Below, one piece after another: positions 4,836 through 9,804 of a stretch of DNA of 64,000 nucleotides. Below the pieces are notes generated by a model, which had not been told where the DNA came from, ran no database searches, and worked only from the letters and a program-made list of their open reading frames with translations. Location: the NCBI RefSeq assembly GCF_002884495.1, contig NZ_KZ614145.1:1502423-1566422 (forward strand), written 5' to 3'. The DNA is from Rummeliibacillus pycnus. GTDB taxonomy: Bacteria > Bacillota > Bacilli > Bacillales_A > Planococcaceae. Position 1 is the stretch's first letter, and each line of letters begins with the position of its first letter. The position numbers were made by a program, and so were the translations under genes.

Positions 4836-7019
4836 TTATATCTCCCCTTCTAGCAACTTCATGTGAATACCCACCTGATTAAATCTTGATACCACGATCT
4901 GAGCATCCTCTATTGTTGTATTTGATAGAAGCACAGCAATATGATTATTTTCCAACTGACCAATATAATCTGTTTCCCTTAATAGACTAAAAAGTTTACT
5001 CGAATAAGCCATTATCTGTTTTTCAACATAAGTTGTTTCAAGTATCACAAATGGCATATTGTGTTTTTCTTTTGCCTCTTTCTTACTATCTAAAATTACT
5101 TTAAATATCTCTTGCTTTAATATATTTGTGTTTGGAATAAAACGATTCCCTTCCGTCGCATCAATATAACTTAGTGCTTTGTCTAATGCTGCTCCAGCAA
5201 GATCTGTCGTAACTTTAAAGAGATTTTCGTGATACAGTGAAAACTTCTCAAATTCCAATTCATCTATCGTAATAACAGCAGAAATTTCGTTATTATGATA
5301 GACTGGGGCTGCCATTAAAGGCGAATTCGGCAATAATTCTTTATTCACAAACACTTTATCGTATTTAAGAATATATTGAACAAATTCAGATTGCTCTACT
5401 TTTATCGAGTTAATGATAGGTGTCTCTGTATAATTGGAATTGGCAACTAGTCTCAAAAATGACTGATGTTTATTGAATACATATATGGAAACGATTTTTG
5501 CACCCATTATTTCTTGTACAACATTCACCGTACTCGAAAAAACCTTTTCAGGTTCTAAGTCATCTAGTTTTTTTACAATGGAATATATTTTTCCAAAGCT
5601 ATCTTCACTATTTAGCAAACGTAATTGTAATTCATCTTTAACTTCTCTTATTTCCTTATGAATACCATCCAAAAATCCATAGCGTTGTTCAAGTTCTTCA
5701 ATTTTTTGGTGTTGTTCTTGAAGCTTATTCGATTTACGTTGAACTGAATACCCAACAACTAATCCTACTGATAGGAAAAGAGCTACTTGGAAAAAGAAGG
5801 AGGTATCATAAAGTAAAGAAACAAATTCACGCCCTTCTATCAATTTTTCTACAATTAACAATCCAATTGACAAACCTACTGACAAAATGGACTGTTTACT
5901 ACCGTAAATAACGCCCATAATCATAATATAAAAAACACTTATATCAATTGAATTTAATACGCTTAAATTATCTGATAATACGAGCCAAGCGATTATAAAA
6001 AAAATAAAGATATTTTCTATATATGCTTTGAATGGTTTAATCCAGTGAATAAAATCTGATGATTTCTTGACTTCTTCTGCAGCACTAGCAGCAACCTCTT
6101 GTTCTGCTTGGTATTCTAGTGCCCATTGATATGTAAGTTCTAACCCTTGTTTCATATCATACATTGGACTCCAGTCGAGTTCATTCTTTACTTTTGTATT
6201 GCATAGTACAGATTTATAAATATCCCCTTCTCTTTCTGAGAGATGTTGAAACTCGATCTCACCATGAATCATTTTAAGTATATTAACTAATTCATTGACA
6301 CTTGTTTCAGTATTTGTTGATAGATTAAACACCCCACTGATCGTCGAGTTTGATGCTCTATAAATCGCATCTGCTACATCAGCAACGAAGATAAAATCTC
6401 TCGTTTGCTCCCCATCTCCCAATATGTGAAGTGGCTTATTCTGTATTGTGTTGTTTGTAAATATAGAAACCACACCACCCTCACCTATACTATTTTGTCT
6501 AGGACCATACACATTAGCAAAACGGAAACATACACTATCAAACCCATACATTTCTCGCCACTTTTGACAATAAGATTCTCCTACCCATTTACTGATTCCA
6601 TATGGAGAAATAGGTGAACAAGTTTCATCTTCTTTTAAAGGTAAATGTTCATTCAATCCATAGACGGCAGCAGATGAGGCAAAAATAAACTTCTTGACCT
6701 TATATTTTTTAGAAAGAGTTAACATATTGACTAATCCAACCACATTGGATGATGTATCTGCTCTTGGATTAGCAAATGACTTTGTCACACTTACTTGTGC
6801 AGCCAGATGAACTACCACATCAAATTGAACGGCTTTAAATATTTCTTCGCACTTAGTATCTTCTACTGAAAGATTATAGCTTTTATGTTTAAATGAAATG
6901 TTATTCTTATTTCCAGTTAGTAAGTTATCAATGATAAAAACATCATAATCTTCTTTGTAAAATCGATCTGCAACATGCGAACCGATAAATCCATACCCAC
7001 CTGTTATTAATACCCGCAT
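4836..7019 (-). CDS. pelD: Fusion protein: UDP-sugar 4-epimerase (GalE-like) + PelD c-di-GMP receptor
   Basis: One uninterrupted 727-residue frame. Residues 1-305 form an extended SDR epimerase: GGYGFIG (7-13) for NAD, catalytic Y140 and K144 (YGISK). Residues 306-330 are a linker. Residues 335-425 hold about four membrane segments, followed by a short coiled coil (425-445), a GAF-like domain (about 480-615) and a degenerate GGDEF-like domain (about 630-725) with no GGDEF motif but an RETD sequence at 681-684. This fits the RxxD site by which PelD binds c-di-GMP; R712 could be the second arginine. The fusion would put precursor supply (UDP-GalNAc or UDP-Gal) at the synthase. It is the first gene of the pel operon. 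Confidence 0.88.
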   Translation of the reverse strand: MRVLITGGYGFIGSHVADRFYKEDYDVFIIDNLLTGNKNNISFKHKSYNLSVEDTKCEEIFKAVQFDVVVHLAAQVSVTKSFANPRADTSSNVVGLVNMLTLSKKYKVKKFIFASSAAVYGLNEHLPLKEDETCSPISPYGISKWVGESYCQKWREMYGFDSVCFRFANVYGPRQNSIGEGGVVSIFTNNTIQNKPLHILGDGEQTRDFIFVADVADAIYRASNSTISGVFNLSTNTETSVNELVNILKMIHGEIEFQHLSEREGDIYKSVLCNTKVKNELDWSPMYDMKQGLELTYQWALEYQAEQEVAASAAEEVKKSSDFIHWIKPFKAYIENIFIFFIIAWLVLSDNLSVLNSIDISVFYIMIMGVIYGSKQSILSVGLSIGLLIVEKLIEGREFVSLLYDTSFFFQVALFLSVGLVVGYSVQRKSNKLQEQHQKIEELEQRYGFLDGIHKEIREVKDELQLRLLNSEDSFGKIYSIVKKLDDLEPEKVFSSTVNVVQEIMGAKIVSIYVFNKHQSFLRLVANSNYTETPIINSIKVEQSEFVQYILKYDKVFVNKELLPNSPLMAAPVYHNNEISAVITIDELEFEKFSLYHENLFKVTTDLAGAALDKALSYIDATEGNRFIPNTNILKQEIFKVILDSKKEAKEKHNMPFVILETTYVEKQIMAYSSKLFSLLRETDYIGQLENNHIAVLLSNTTIEDAQIVVSRFNQVGIHMKLLEGEI

Positions 7020-7143
7020 TTTAAACCACCTTTCCTATTCAACCTGAATTTATTAATATATTTTTATAAAAATGTATAATTATAACAATTTTAGATAAGC
7101 AAATGTTAGATAATTTCCACATAAAATTGTTTCTATTAACAGT

Positions 7144-7185
7144 TATGATGGATATAGTTAAGTGAAATCACACATATCCATCATA
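7144..7185 (-). terminator. 12-bp perfect hairpin after the beta-helix gene
   Basis: TATGATGGATAT at 7144-7155 is perfectly complementary to 7174-7185, with an 18-nt loop, six bases after the beta-helix stop. There is no clear U-tract, so it may be a weak terminator or a processing or stability element that lets some transcription reach galE-pelD. Confidence 0.5.
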
Positions 7186-7190
7186 CAAAT

Positions 7191-8513
7191 TTAAGAATTA
7201 ATGTTTGGTTTAAACTCTGGCATAGTAAATATCTTAAAATAAACTTTGTTATTTTTAATTGTATTGCTTTTTTCTTTTTTGTTTATTGTCTGGATAAGAT
7301 TTGTTGTTTTATTAATATAAAATTTATTGTTCAAAAACTGATTCTCAGTGACGTGTTGTTGGAGGGTTATTTCTCCATACCCTTGAGATAATCGATCATT
7401 TAGTGTGAATTCATTTTCATTAATAATATTTTTATAAGCTCCTCCATTAGATACAGATGACCCTCCCATTATAATTCCAGCACCATTATTGTTAATAATC
7501 TTATTTTTTTCAACTGTTATATTACTTGTTGTTTTTCCCTGATTTTCACTGGCCAATTCAATTCCAAAATCATTTTTGTATACAAAGTTATTTTTTATCA
7601 AAATGTTAGTAGCGCCGTCTGCATAAATTCCTCCAGCAGCAAAACTTCCCTTATAAGCCGGATTCTTTTCAGAAGTATTATGATAAACTATGTTATTTGA
7701 GATGGTTCCATTTCTCGCTTGATCGATACAATCATCATTGCAAGCTTTATAAAAGCCCGCTACGTCAATCCCGATATTGTTATTATGATGAATTTTATTT
7801 TGGTTAATAAGGAATCCTTCAATATTACCGCTTAGCGTTAATGCTTCACTGCTACCTAAAGTTAAATGATGAATTTCATTATTTTGAATTGTAATATCAT
7901 GAATTGAATTAGAAGAATCCCCATAAAATTGGATTCCATGTGCATTTCCATTTATTGAATAATTTGATATATCATGAATATTATTATTTAGTATCTTTAT
8001 ATTACTACTACCTTCTCGTACAAGAATAGCTACAGGATACTGATTTGGATCATTTGTCGTAATATTCCTCATTTCAAAACCATTGATTACAATATAGTTT
8101 GAATTTTTCACATCAAAAAATGTACTATTTCCACTATCTCCTGCCATTTTTCCAGCATCAAGTATTGGATTTTCACCTGGATATGCTTTAAACGTAATAT
8201 CCCCTGCTTCTTTTGTTCCGGAGTTGTTAATTTTTACAAACTCTGAATAGATTCCTTCACGAACATATACCGTTTCACCAGCTTTTAGACTATTAGCCGC
8301 TTTCTGTATCGTTCTCCAAGGTGCATTAATTGTTCCTAAGTTTGAATCATCTCCATTTTCTGATACATAGAACAATTTAGAACTAGGACTATCAGCACTT
8401 GCTTCAGGATAACTAAACAAGAATAATAAAACACTCAATAACATGGCCTTTTTAAAAACATCTTCAAATAATCCATATCTTTTACAGGTAATAAAATTTT
8501 TTATTTTTTGCAT
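7191..8513 (-). CDS. Secreted right-handed parallel beta-helix protein
   Basis: About 440 residues. The start ATG at 8513 is chosen because AAGGAAGG lies five bases upstream; an upstream in-frame start would add eight residues. A long basic n-region precedes a hydrophobic segment (about 25-40) ending near ASA, so it is probably exported. The body has the pattern of a beta-helix: a DUF1565-type opening (LFYVSENGDDSNLGT), then repeated N-rich turns such as NNNIHDI, NNEIHHL and NNFVYKND. Such folds are common in polysaccharide lyases, epimerases and hydrolases. Directly upstream of the pel operon on the same strand, it could act on Pel; that is inference. No catalytic residues could be assigned. 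Confidence 0.8.
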   Translation of the reverse strand: MQKIKNFITCKRYGLFEDVFKKAMLLSVLLFLFSYPEASADSPSSKLFYVSENGDDSNLGTINAPWRTIQKAANSLKAGETVYVREGIYSEFVKINNSGTKEAGDITFKAYPGENPILDAGKMAGDSGNSTFFDVKNSNYIVINGFEMRNITTNDPNQYPVAILVREGSSNIKILNNNIHDISNYSINGNAHGIQFYGDSSNSIHDITIQNNEIHHLTLGSSEALTLSGNIEGFLINQNKIHHNNNIGIDVAGFYKACNDDCIDQARNGTISNNIVYHNTSEKNPAYKGSFAAGGIYADGATNILIKNNFVYKNDFGIELASENQGKTTSNITVEKNKIINNNGAGIIMGGSSVSNGGAYKNIINENEFTLNDRLSQGYGEITLQQHVTENQFLNNKFYINKTTNLIQTINKKEKSNTIKNNKVYFKIFTMPEFKPNINS

Positions 8514-8733
8514 TATAACCTTCCTTAGAAAACACAAGATAGTTATTTCTACTTAAACGGAAAATACAATCATTATATTTCATTAATTTATATGAAATTA
8601 GTTTGATTTTGTTCGCTTGATTAAATAATTTTACTCTTAATAAAGTACATAATTCCTTAAAAAATTACAAATAATTACTTAACAATTTTAATTTATCATT
8701 CTAAACAAATTCTGAACAATTTCCATATTCCCC

Positions 8734-9804
8734 TTATTTTTTATGAATTATCCGAAAGGACGTTTCTTCAAAATTCACAGTAGCAATCGAATATCCGTTA
8801 TTGAATGGAGATACTTTGTAATATTTATTTTTTAAAAGTGTAACTGCACCTCTTTTGTCGTATACTGCGTCAATTAATCTACCACTGTATATGCCGCCAA
8901 ATGCATAGCCTTCAGAAAACTCTTCAATTAAATTTTTTAGCTTAAAAAGGGTTTTTCTTGTTTTCAATGAAATATACCCCATGGAAATATGATTCTGTTC
9001 ATTTGTATATACATAAGGTGCTATCCCTTCATTTAAAGCTAAAACCTGATAATATTTTGTTTCAAGAATTTTTTTCCCTTTTGTATTAATCACACCATAA
9101 TAATAAGTAGTTCCTTTTTGAATAACCACTCTTGCAAAGTGATCTACAAAACTTTCTGCGTCGATATATGTATACGGAATAACCAGTTTACCAGACTTAT
9201 TAATGTAACCCCATTTCCCTTTATTTTTTACAGGTGCTAAGCCATTTTGGAACATGTACGCTTGCTCGAATTTTGCTGGAATAACTAATTTATTCTTACT
9301 ATTGACAAAGCCATATTGTTTACCAATTTTAACAGCTGTTAAACCTTCACCTACCGAATTTACTTCTTGATATTTTAACGGGATGACAACTTTCCCATTT
9401 TTATCAATAATACCCCATTTCCCTTTTTTTGCTACTTGCACATATCCATCGTGAAATGATGGAGCTACTTCATCGTATTGCGCACTAACTAGAAAGTCAC
9501 CATTTGTATTTATATAGCCCCATTTTCCATTATTTAAAACAGGTGCTAATCCTTCAGTAAAATTATGTGCTTCTTCAAAAATTGCTTTAATTGCCATATT
9601 TCCTTTCGAATCCATAAAGCCCCATTTTCCATTTACTTTCACAGCTACAAGTTTTGAGCCAAATGGTTGTACTACACAATCATATTCATCTACAGAATAA
9701 ATCTTACTTTCCGTTAATGTGAATGCATTTGCTGAAGTTACATCACAACTTATAATTGATAATATTAGAAAAAAAATAACTATAAATTTCCCAAGCAGTT
9801 TCAA
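8734..9804 (-). CDS. WG-repeat (KWGF/Y) surface protein, probable lipoprotein
   Basis: 356 residues from a TTG start with AGGAGGGG seven bases upstream. The N-terminus is a signal peptide with a possible lipobox ending in C20 (LSIISC). The rest is a series of WG repeats (GKWGFMDSKG, GKWGYINTNG, GKWGIIDKNG, KQYGFVNSKN, GKWGYINKSG and more divergent copies towards the C-terminus), each about 45-48 residues. WG-repeat proteins are usually surface or extracellular; their biochemical role is mostly unknown. It has a hairpin terminator upstream of it and appears to be its own unit. Confidence 0.85.
   Translation of the reverse strand: MKLLGKFIVIFFLILSIISCDVTSANAFTLTESKIYSVDEYDCVVQPFGSKLVAVKVNGKWGFMDSKGNMAIKAIFEEAHNFTEGLAPVLNNGKWGYINTNGDFLVSAQYDEVAPSFHDGYVQVAKKGKWGIIDKNGKVVIPLKYQEVNSVGEGLTAVKIGKQYGFVNSKNKLVIPAKFEQAYMFQNGLAPVKNKGKWGYINKSGKLVIPYTYIDAESFVDHFARVVIQKGTTYYYGVINTKGKKILETKYYQVLALNEGIAPYVYTNEQNHISMGYISLKTRKTLFKLKNLIEEFSEGYAFGGIYSGRLIDAVYDKRGAVTLLKNKYYKVSPFNNGYSIATVNFEETSFRIIHKK

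Follow-up and report, generated by a model that had tools for sequence, protein, structure and literature searches.

Whitfield et al. (2020; PMC7112168) report that PelD resembles its P. aeruginosa counterpart in most of the bacilli they surveyed, that all Brevibacillus PelDs carry an extra N-terminal SDR, perhaps a functional epimerase, and that the SDR is altered in all other extended PelDs, those of streptococci, clostridia and actinobacteria. The same article reports PelD and GalE as separate genes in B. cereus. An article on S. intermedius (2025; PMC12345266), following a 2021 review, sorts PelDs into four groups by GGDEF, SDR and degenerate SDR. In P. protegens, PelX is reported to be a UDP-GlcNAc C4-epimerase that supplies UDP-GalNAc for Pel (2022; PMC9135694), and it follows from this article, together with the species and activity given in their titles, that PDB entries 6wjb and 6wj9 are PelX. 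With respect to c-di-GMP, R363, D366 and R395 of B. cereus PelD are each described as required for binding of the nucleotide and for biofilm.

The window analysed here, a stretch of 64,000 nucleotides from Rummeliibacillus pycnus, contains the pelD gene of a Gram-positive Pel operon, and this gene belongs to the known class of pelD whose product starts with an epimerase domain. As shown in Table 1, pelD, pelE, pelA(DA), pelF and pelG are contiguous and co-directional, as in pelDEA(DA)FG. The original prediction that a single 727-codon frame joins an epimerase to PelD was borne out by ORF analysis, the frame being open from an ATG start, and the motif GGYGFIG, Y140/K144 and RETD at 681-684 were confirmed at their predicted positions. 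It had also assumed that Gram-positive Pel clusters carry the two parts as separate genes, which is true for B. cereus and wrong in general (PMC7112168). The idea of a fusion not yet described fails for related genera, whose extended PelDs are in that article, and stands for Rummeliibacillus insofar as its main text makes no mention of the genus. A novel fusion was therefore rejected, since an N-terminal epimerase in PelD is described in both PMC7112168 and PMC12345266; the epimerase-PelD fusion is widespread and has been on record for related bacteria since 2020.

Table 1. Features of the pel locus in the R. pycnus window (coordinates are window positions)
Feature	Coordinates	Strand	Basis
pelD with fused N-terminal epimerase, 727 aa	4836..7019	-	ORF, Pfam, AlphaFold2 model
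SDR/GalE-type epimerase domain, residues 1-305	6105..7019	-	G7/G10/G13, S116, Y140, K144, gatekeeper S270
Four transmembrane segments, within residues 330-430	5730..6032	-	Hydropathy and model helices
GAF domain, residues 489-613	5181..5555	-	Pfam GAF_3 E 1.2e-6; C-terminal model matches GAF folds and PelD
Degenerate GGDEF, about residues 639-727, I-site R681xxD684 and R712	4839..5105	-	Weak Pfam GGDEF, residue conservation, fold match to P. aeruginosa PelD
pelE, 305 aa	3917..4834	-	Own profile
pelA(DA), deacetylase-like DUF2194, 615 aa	2101..3948	-	Pfam DUF2194 E 1.4e-155
pelF, GT4 glycosyltransferase, 487 aa	684..2147	-	NCBIfam PelF 378 bits, cut-off 100
pelG start, first 227 of 1037 aa	1..681	-	Whole gene L163:9991-13104 (-)
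Beta-helix protein before pelD, probable pel-linked accessory gene	7191..8537	-	Pfam Beta_helix

The R. pycnus protein has the NAD-binding and catalytic residues of a Gram-positive PelD with an intact SDR, followed by four transmembrane segments, GAF and degenerate GGDEF, the last with the I-site RxxD and second Arg (R681, D684, R712). This order had been predicted, and Pfam, hydropathy and the structural model support it. Pfam places Epimerase at residues 3-225 (E 3e-57), and its GGDEF match at 667-715 is weak and under the cut-off (E 0.15), as expected because the domain is degenerate. Hydropathy peaks at 337-355, 353-371, 378-396 and 400-426 fit the helices of an AlphaFold2 model (289-348, 354-372, 374-394 and 406-470). 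This model, built from 36 sequences (the window and loci), has a mean pLDDT of 84.1 but a pTM of 0.49, so that it can be trusted for single domains but not for how these are arranged relative to one another. Scans gave 13 promoter matches against a shuffle mean of 16.0 (sd 3.7) and one terminator match against 0.7 (sd 0.9), with no excess in either case, and an Rfam search over window positions 6500-9000 returned no family.

Uninterrupted fusions were also found in R. suwonensis and R. stabekisii, with 71% and 65% identity to the R. pycnus PelD. Thus, three of the four Rummeliibacillus genomes searched carry the fusion, R. pycnus included, and the fourth (G001) gave no match to the PelD half. 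In the whole order, the PelD half matched in 26 of 261 genomes, and in 24 of them, R. pycnus counted, the two parts form one frame that measures 719-744 aa when read from the first start codon; the other two matches were weak. All 24 fused frames keep the glycine motif and YxxxK. One of these genomes (G171) has a second, unfused PelD of 413 aa at L053, 21% identical, and the order-level PelD of L036 has Asp at the position of R681. A hidden stop and restart near codons 305-335, which had been raised as a concern, was not present; there is no frameshift and relatives keep the same continuous frame. The fusion recurs far beyond chance, and we rejected a sequencing error or a chance joining on the grounds of the continuous frame in three Rummeliibacillus and 24 of the 261 order genomes.

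In order to compare PelD architectures, a census of 145 sequences was assembled from 80 named PelF loci, which as the best 80 among 403 are biased toward relatives of the window, from 64 further chosen stretches and from the window; it shares 12 loci with the order-level set of 25. No PelD was found in four sequences and seven PelDs were split or truncated (L130, L149, L156, L157, L228, L262, L264), which left 134 usable PelDs, 129 of them distinct. In L130, L149, L156 and L262 the epimerase-side and PelD-side parts lie in overlapping or adjacent frames, through frameshift, draft error or real fission. PelDs were called intact when G7/G10/G13, S or T116, Y140 and K144 were all kept, and degenerate when these residues were altered but the N-terminal region had at least 200 residues, a definition under which length says nothing alone. 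Searching PelD homologues for an N-terminal epimerase, as had been suggested, found it intact in 86 of the 129 distinct PelDs, degenerate in 24 and absent in 18, one PelD being cut by a contig end. These shares are not natural frequencies, as the sample leans to the relatives of the window: intact domains made up 69/80 of the named loci versus 21/64 of the further stretches. The 38 stretches from a class-wide search gave 19 intact, 15 without the domain and 4 degenerate, and the 26 clostridial and other stretches gave 2 intact, 17 degenerate, 5 without the domain and 2 in which none was found. The epimerase-domain profile recognises 20 of the 24 degenerate PelDs, 8 of which score over 140 bits; L243, L252, L257 and L265 are degenerate by length alone, without a profile match. 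A linked stand-alone epimerase occurs in 1/86 loci beside intact domains (2/91 in a motif-free count) versus 7/42 beside degenerate or absent ones (Fisher p 0.0017), the remaining 35 of these 42 having none; the contrast comes down to just 3 pairs that are independent and lie on supported branches, and a sign test is not significant. For that reason, we do not claim that a linked galE replaces a lost epimerase.

Among solved structures, those nearest to the N-terminal half by sequence and fold are the UDP-glucose 4-epimerases 4zrm and 7ys8. Residues 1-303 of the model superpose on T. maritima GalE (4zrm) with Z 44.4, rmsd 1.3 and 42% identity, and on 6wjb, the UDP-GlcNAc C4-epimerase of P. protegens, with Z 41.8, rmsd 1.4 and 34% identity; the epimerase model matches P. 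aeruginosa UDP-GlcNAc 4-epimerase (1sb9) with Z 40.2. The domain is thus like PelX (6wjb, 6wj9), a Pel precursor enzyme, in fold, catalytic residues and this 34% identity, and unlike it in that PelX is a separate enzyme. In NCBIfam it is GalE-like and not filed as GalE, scoring 187.7 bits against galE TIGR01179 (cut-off 262.3), whereas an unlinked GalE of R. pycnus reaches 481.5 bits against the same cut-off and has Cys at the gatekeeper position. Since this second enzyme exists in the genome, the fused one need not be the sole source of UDP-GalNAc, and redundancy is possible. A small gatekeeper residue admits the N-acetyl group of UDP-HexNAc. Tyr299 of E. coli GalE (index checked) aligns with S270 of the fused epimerase, and PDB entry 1lrk is, by its title, the complex of E. 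coli GalE Y299C with UDP-GlcNAc. The gatekeeper is Ser in 88, Ala in 2 and Met in 1 of the 91 rows with an intact epimerase. The R. pycnus domain has the catalytic S/T, Y and K and the small gatekeeper of a PelX-like 4-epimerase (S116, Y140, K144, S270).

Fold match, likeness to PelX and the small S270 together make epimerisation between UDP-GlcNAc and UDP-GalNAc the likeliest activity. We infer that the fused domain most likely interconverts these two sugars with a preference for UDP-HexNAc, and the role in precursor supply that the original prediction gave it is supported, at the level of a prediction, by fold, catalytic residues and gatekeeper S270. By analogy, the precursor step most likely would correspond to that of the separate enzymes PelX in P. 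protegens or, presumably, GalE BCE_5588 in B. cereus. Across 11 pairs of relatives, none of which includes the window sequence, the median dN/dS was 0.093 over the epimerase part and 0.119 over the remainder of the protein, values that indicate purifying selection on both halves of epimerase-PelD in these relatives.

In the C-terminal half, R681, D684 and R712 match R363, D366 and R395 of B. cereus PelD by motif and spacing. They are retained in 119 of the 129 distinct census PelDs, plus one cut PelD, and the full I-site is found in 79/86 intact-epimerase, 22/24 degenerate and 18/18 unfused PelDs (distinct); in the 35-row site alignment, invariance is partly by choice, the rows having been selected for a GGDEF with the site. 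PelD and GalE BCE_5588 of B. cereus ATCC 10987 are like the R. pycnus fusion as parts of the pathway, including the RxxD and second Arg that are described as binding c-di-GMP, and unlike it in being separate genes (PMC7112168). Foldseek with the C-terminal model returned P. aeruginosa PelD as 6 of the best 8 matches, diguanylate cyclase 4zmu being first; over both domains the superposition on PelD has an rmsd of 14-15.4 and a TM of 0.32-0.38, and domain placement is not matched. Against PDB sequences, phmmer with the C-terminal half found nothing up to E 1, and a profile of this half from 35 relatives gave weak GGDEF, GAF and chance matches. The R. pycnus genome has 15 further GGDEF-domain matches, so that a c-di-GMP signal can exist, and we predict from its residues that the R. 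pycnus PelD binds c-di-GMP.

Seven of the 86 intact-epimerase PelDs have lost the c-di-GMP function, the GGDEF domain being gone in 4 and the I-site residues in 3. The former are from Neobacillus (L139), Bacillus infantis (L145), Lederbergia (L147) and a MAG (L155), with intact epimerase residues, no GGDEF and 634-638 aa, and in L139, L145 and L147 pelE overlaps the end of pelD. The combination of an intact epimerase without GGDEF is not named in the four-group scheme as described in PMC12345266. The latter, L146, L151 and L154 from Jeotgalibacillus, keep the epimerase residues and a tail of GGDEF length, in which Glu/Glu/Leu replaces the I-site Arg/Asp/Arg. Streptococcal, clostridial and actinobacterial PelDs, as described in PMC7112168 and, for S. 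intermedius, in PMC12345266, have the same kind of N-terminal domain as R. pycnus, but their catalytic residues are altered and the streptococcal PelDs are without GGDEF, whereas R. pycnus has both intact. Catalysis and the c-di-GMP site have thus been lost independently of each other, which argues against an obligatory coupling, although the two may be coupled in R. pycnus.

The rest of the operon was compared across the census. A pelE profile picked one ORF each in 143 of the 146 sequences scanned, window included. PelG, of 1037 aa, combines Pfam PelG (1-454) and a CotH kinase domain (601-917) in one chain and is followed, beyond the window, by a VTC-domain gene and then a DUF4956 gene; in streptococci and clostridia, CotH, polyphosphate polymerase and DUF4956 are reported to be contiguous, downstream of pelDEA(DA)FG (Whitfield et al. 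2020, PMC7112168). The R. pycnus system is like that of Brevibacillus in having on PelD an N-terminal SDR/epimerase whose cofactor and catalytic residues are intact, and a pelDEA(DA)FG operon, as described in PMC7112168, and unlike it in the CotH fused to PelG: of the three census loci from Brevibacillus, L120 and L124 have CotH as a separate protein, and in L141 none was found. The PelG-CotH fusion was found in 48 of the 86 distinct loci with an intact epimerase, to which the window adds a 49th, its pelG having been completed from L163, and in none of the 24 degenerate and 18 unfused PelD loci. CotH and PelG are treated as separate proteins in PMC7112168 and PMC12345266, which were the only articles found on CotH, PelG and polysaccharide; the comparison covers their main texts and is no claim that the PelG-CotH fusion or the beta-helix gene is absent from print. 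Homologues of the beta-helix protein (404-966 aa) occur in 27 census sequences, window included, all 27 in the PelG-CotH group (the window via L163). In 26 of them pelD follows at a distance of up to about 0.5 kb, and in R. stabekisii (L108) the gene is located beyond pelG. Among PDB sequences, the protein matched only a xylosidase, and that in part, and a rhamnogalacturonan lyase, the latter weakly, and we regard it as a candidate Pel-active enzyme; the term beta-helix is absent from the main texts of PMC7112168 and PMC12345266. A WG-repeat protein (window 8734-9804, minus strand, 6 matched stretches) adjoins the cluster, and elsewhere in the census this gene is found in R. suwonensis L144 only.

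The history of the N-terminal domain was followed on a PelF tree, computed with a quick method and SH-aLRT only from 89 of 132 thinned rows, on which change counts cannot separate gain from loss. Presence or absence of the domain requires two changes, one of them being the single row L269, the only row inside the fused part of the tree in which the domain is missing. The PelG-CotH fusion is one change, with the window set as fused by hand from L163. The label 'degenerate' requires 8 changes, of which no fewer than 5 fall on starred branches; since regain of a lost catalytic triad is unlikely, we read the 8 changes as repeated decay. The domain often persists after catalytic loss, which hints that it probably has a structural role in the complex besides catalysis, although strongly altered domains are hard to align. 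The PelFs of Rummeliibacillus, Psychrobacillus, Solibacillus and Sporosarcina are nested inside Paenibacillus PelF, and Ureibacillus PelF lies in another Paenibacillus branch. From this nesting, transfer of the cluster between families is possible.

The direct observations on the fusion are that the gene is continuous and conserved and keeps its catalytic and c-di-GMP residues, together with the fold, the operon and, in relatives, purifying selection on both halves. Our main reading, to which we give a probability of about 0.75, is that an N-terminal UDP-GlcNAc/UDP-GalNAc epimerase sits beside PelF and the c-di-GMP-sensing TM-GAF-GGDEF switch of PelDEFG. The cytoplasmic N-terminal domain would interconvert UDP-GlcNAc and UDP-GalNAc and, in the placement that we propose, would make the precursor available at the membrane right beside the glycosyltransferase PelF; c-di-GMP would be sensed by the TM-GAF-GGDEF part via R681/D684/R712, and c-di-GMP-bound PelD would switch the PelDEFG complex on.

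It is unlikely that the domain is instead mainly structural or a docking device, with marginal catalysis and the unlinked GalE supplying UDP-GalNAc. That GalE is present in the R. pycnus genome, 20 of the 24 PelDs with altered catalytic residues still match the epimerase profile (8 of them over 140 bits), and the degenerate label has at least 5 starred-branch changes against 2 changes in all for presence or absence of the N-terminal region. However, the catalytic and Rossmann residues are all kept in R. pycnus and in 86 of the 129 distinct PelDs, the epimerase part is under purifying selection in relatives, and the length of degenerate domains is set by the class definition, 4 of the 24 (L243, L252, L257, L265) having no profile match. 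Somewhat less probable again is the allosteric control of both epimerase and polymerase by c-di-GMP that the original prediction had proposed. Both domains are on one chain and the full I-site accompanies 79 of the 86 distinct intact epimerases, but it is also kept in 22 of the 24 degenerate ones, while 4 of the 86 intact PelDs have no GGDEF at all and 3, from Jeotgalibacillus, no I-site residues; four membrane segments also separate the epimerase from the c-di-GMP part in the sequence.

An epimerase for UDP-Glc/UDP-Gal or another UDP-hexose, with a polymer that is not plain GalNAc/GalN, is improbable: the nearest structures by sequence and fold are indeed UDP-glucose 4-epimerases (4zrm, 7ys8), but the gatekeeper S270 is small, the UDP-GlcNAc C4-epimerase of P. 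protegens comes close behind (Z 41.8 versus 44.4), and the operon genes read include no glycosyltransferase other than PelF. As for two genes fused by a sequencing or assembly error, the parts do lie in two overlapping or adjacent frames in L130, L149 and L156 of the census, but nothing of this kind is seen in the window, and the continuous frame in three Rummeliibacillus genomes and 24 of the 261 genomes of the order makes such an error negligibly probable.

As the fusion is already in print, the find itself is modest. Besides the main reading of a precursor enzyme beside PelF, we tentatively put forward a wider view of the Bacillota Pel systems with a fused epimerase, which may or may not hold and is rather doubtful at present: the domain could be a lasting structural part of the synthase that outlives catalysis, and one clade, including R. 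pycnus, could have gained a second covalent tether, in PelG-CotH, and a linked beta-helix protein. If true, precursor supply, c-di-GMP sensing, polymerisation, export and surface phosphorylation or remodelling would be joined in few chains. The census amounts to a natural experiment, in which active-looking, altered and absent epimerases, with and without GGDEF, occur within one gene family, and environmental relatives, for instance of Paenibacillus or Rummeliibacillus, are possible test strains. It lets one ask whether the synthase depends on carrying its precursor enzyme or just on the form of that domain.
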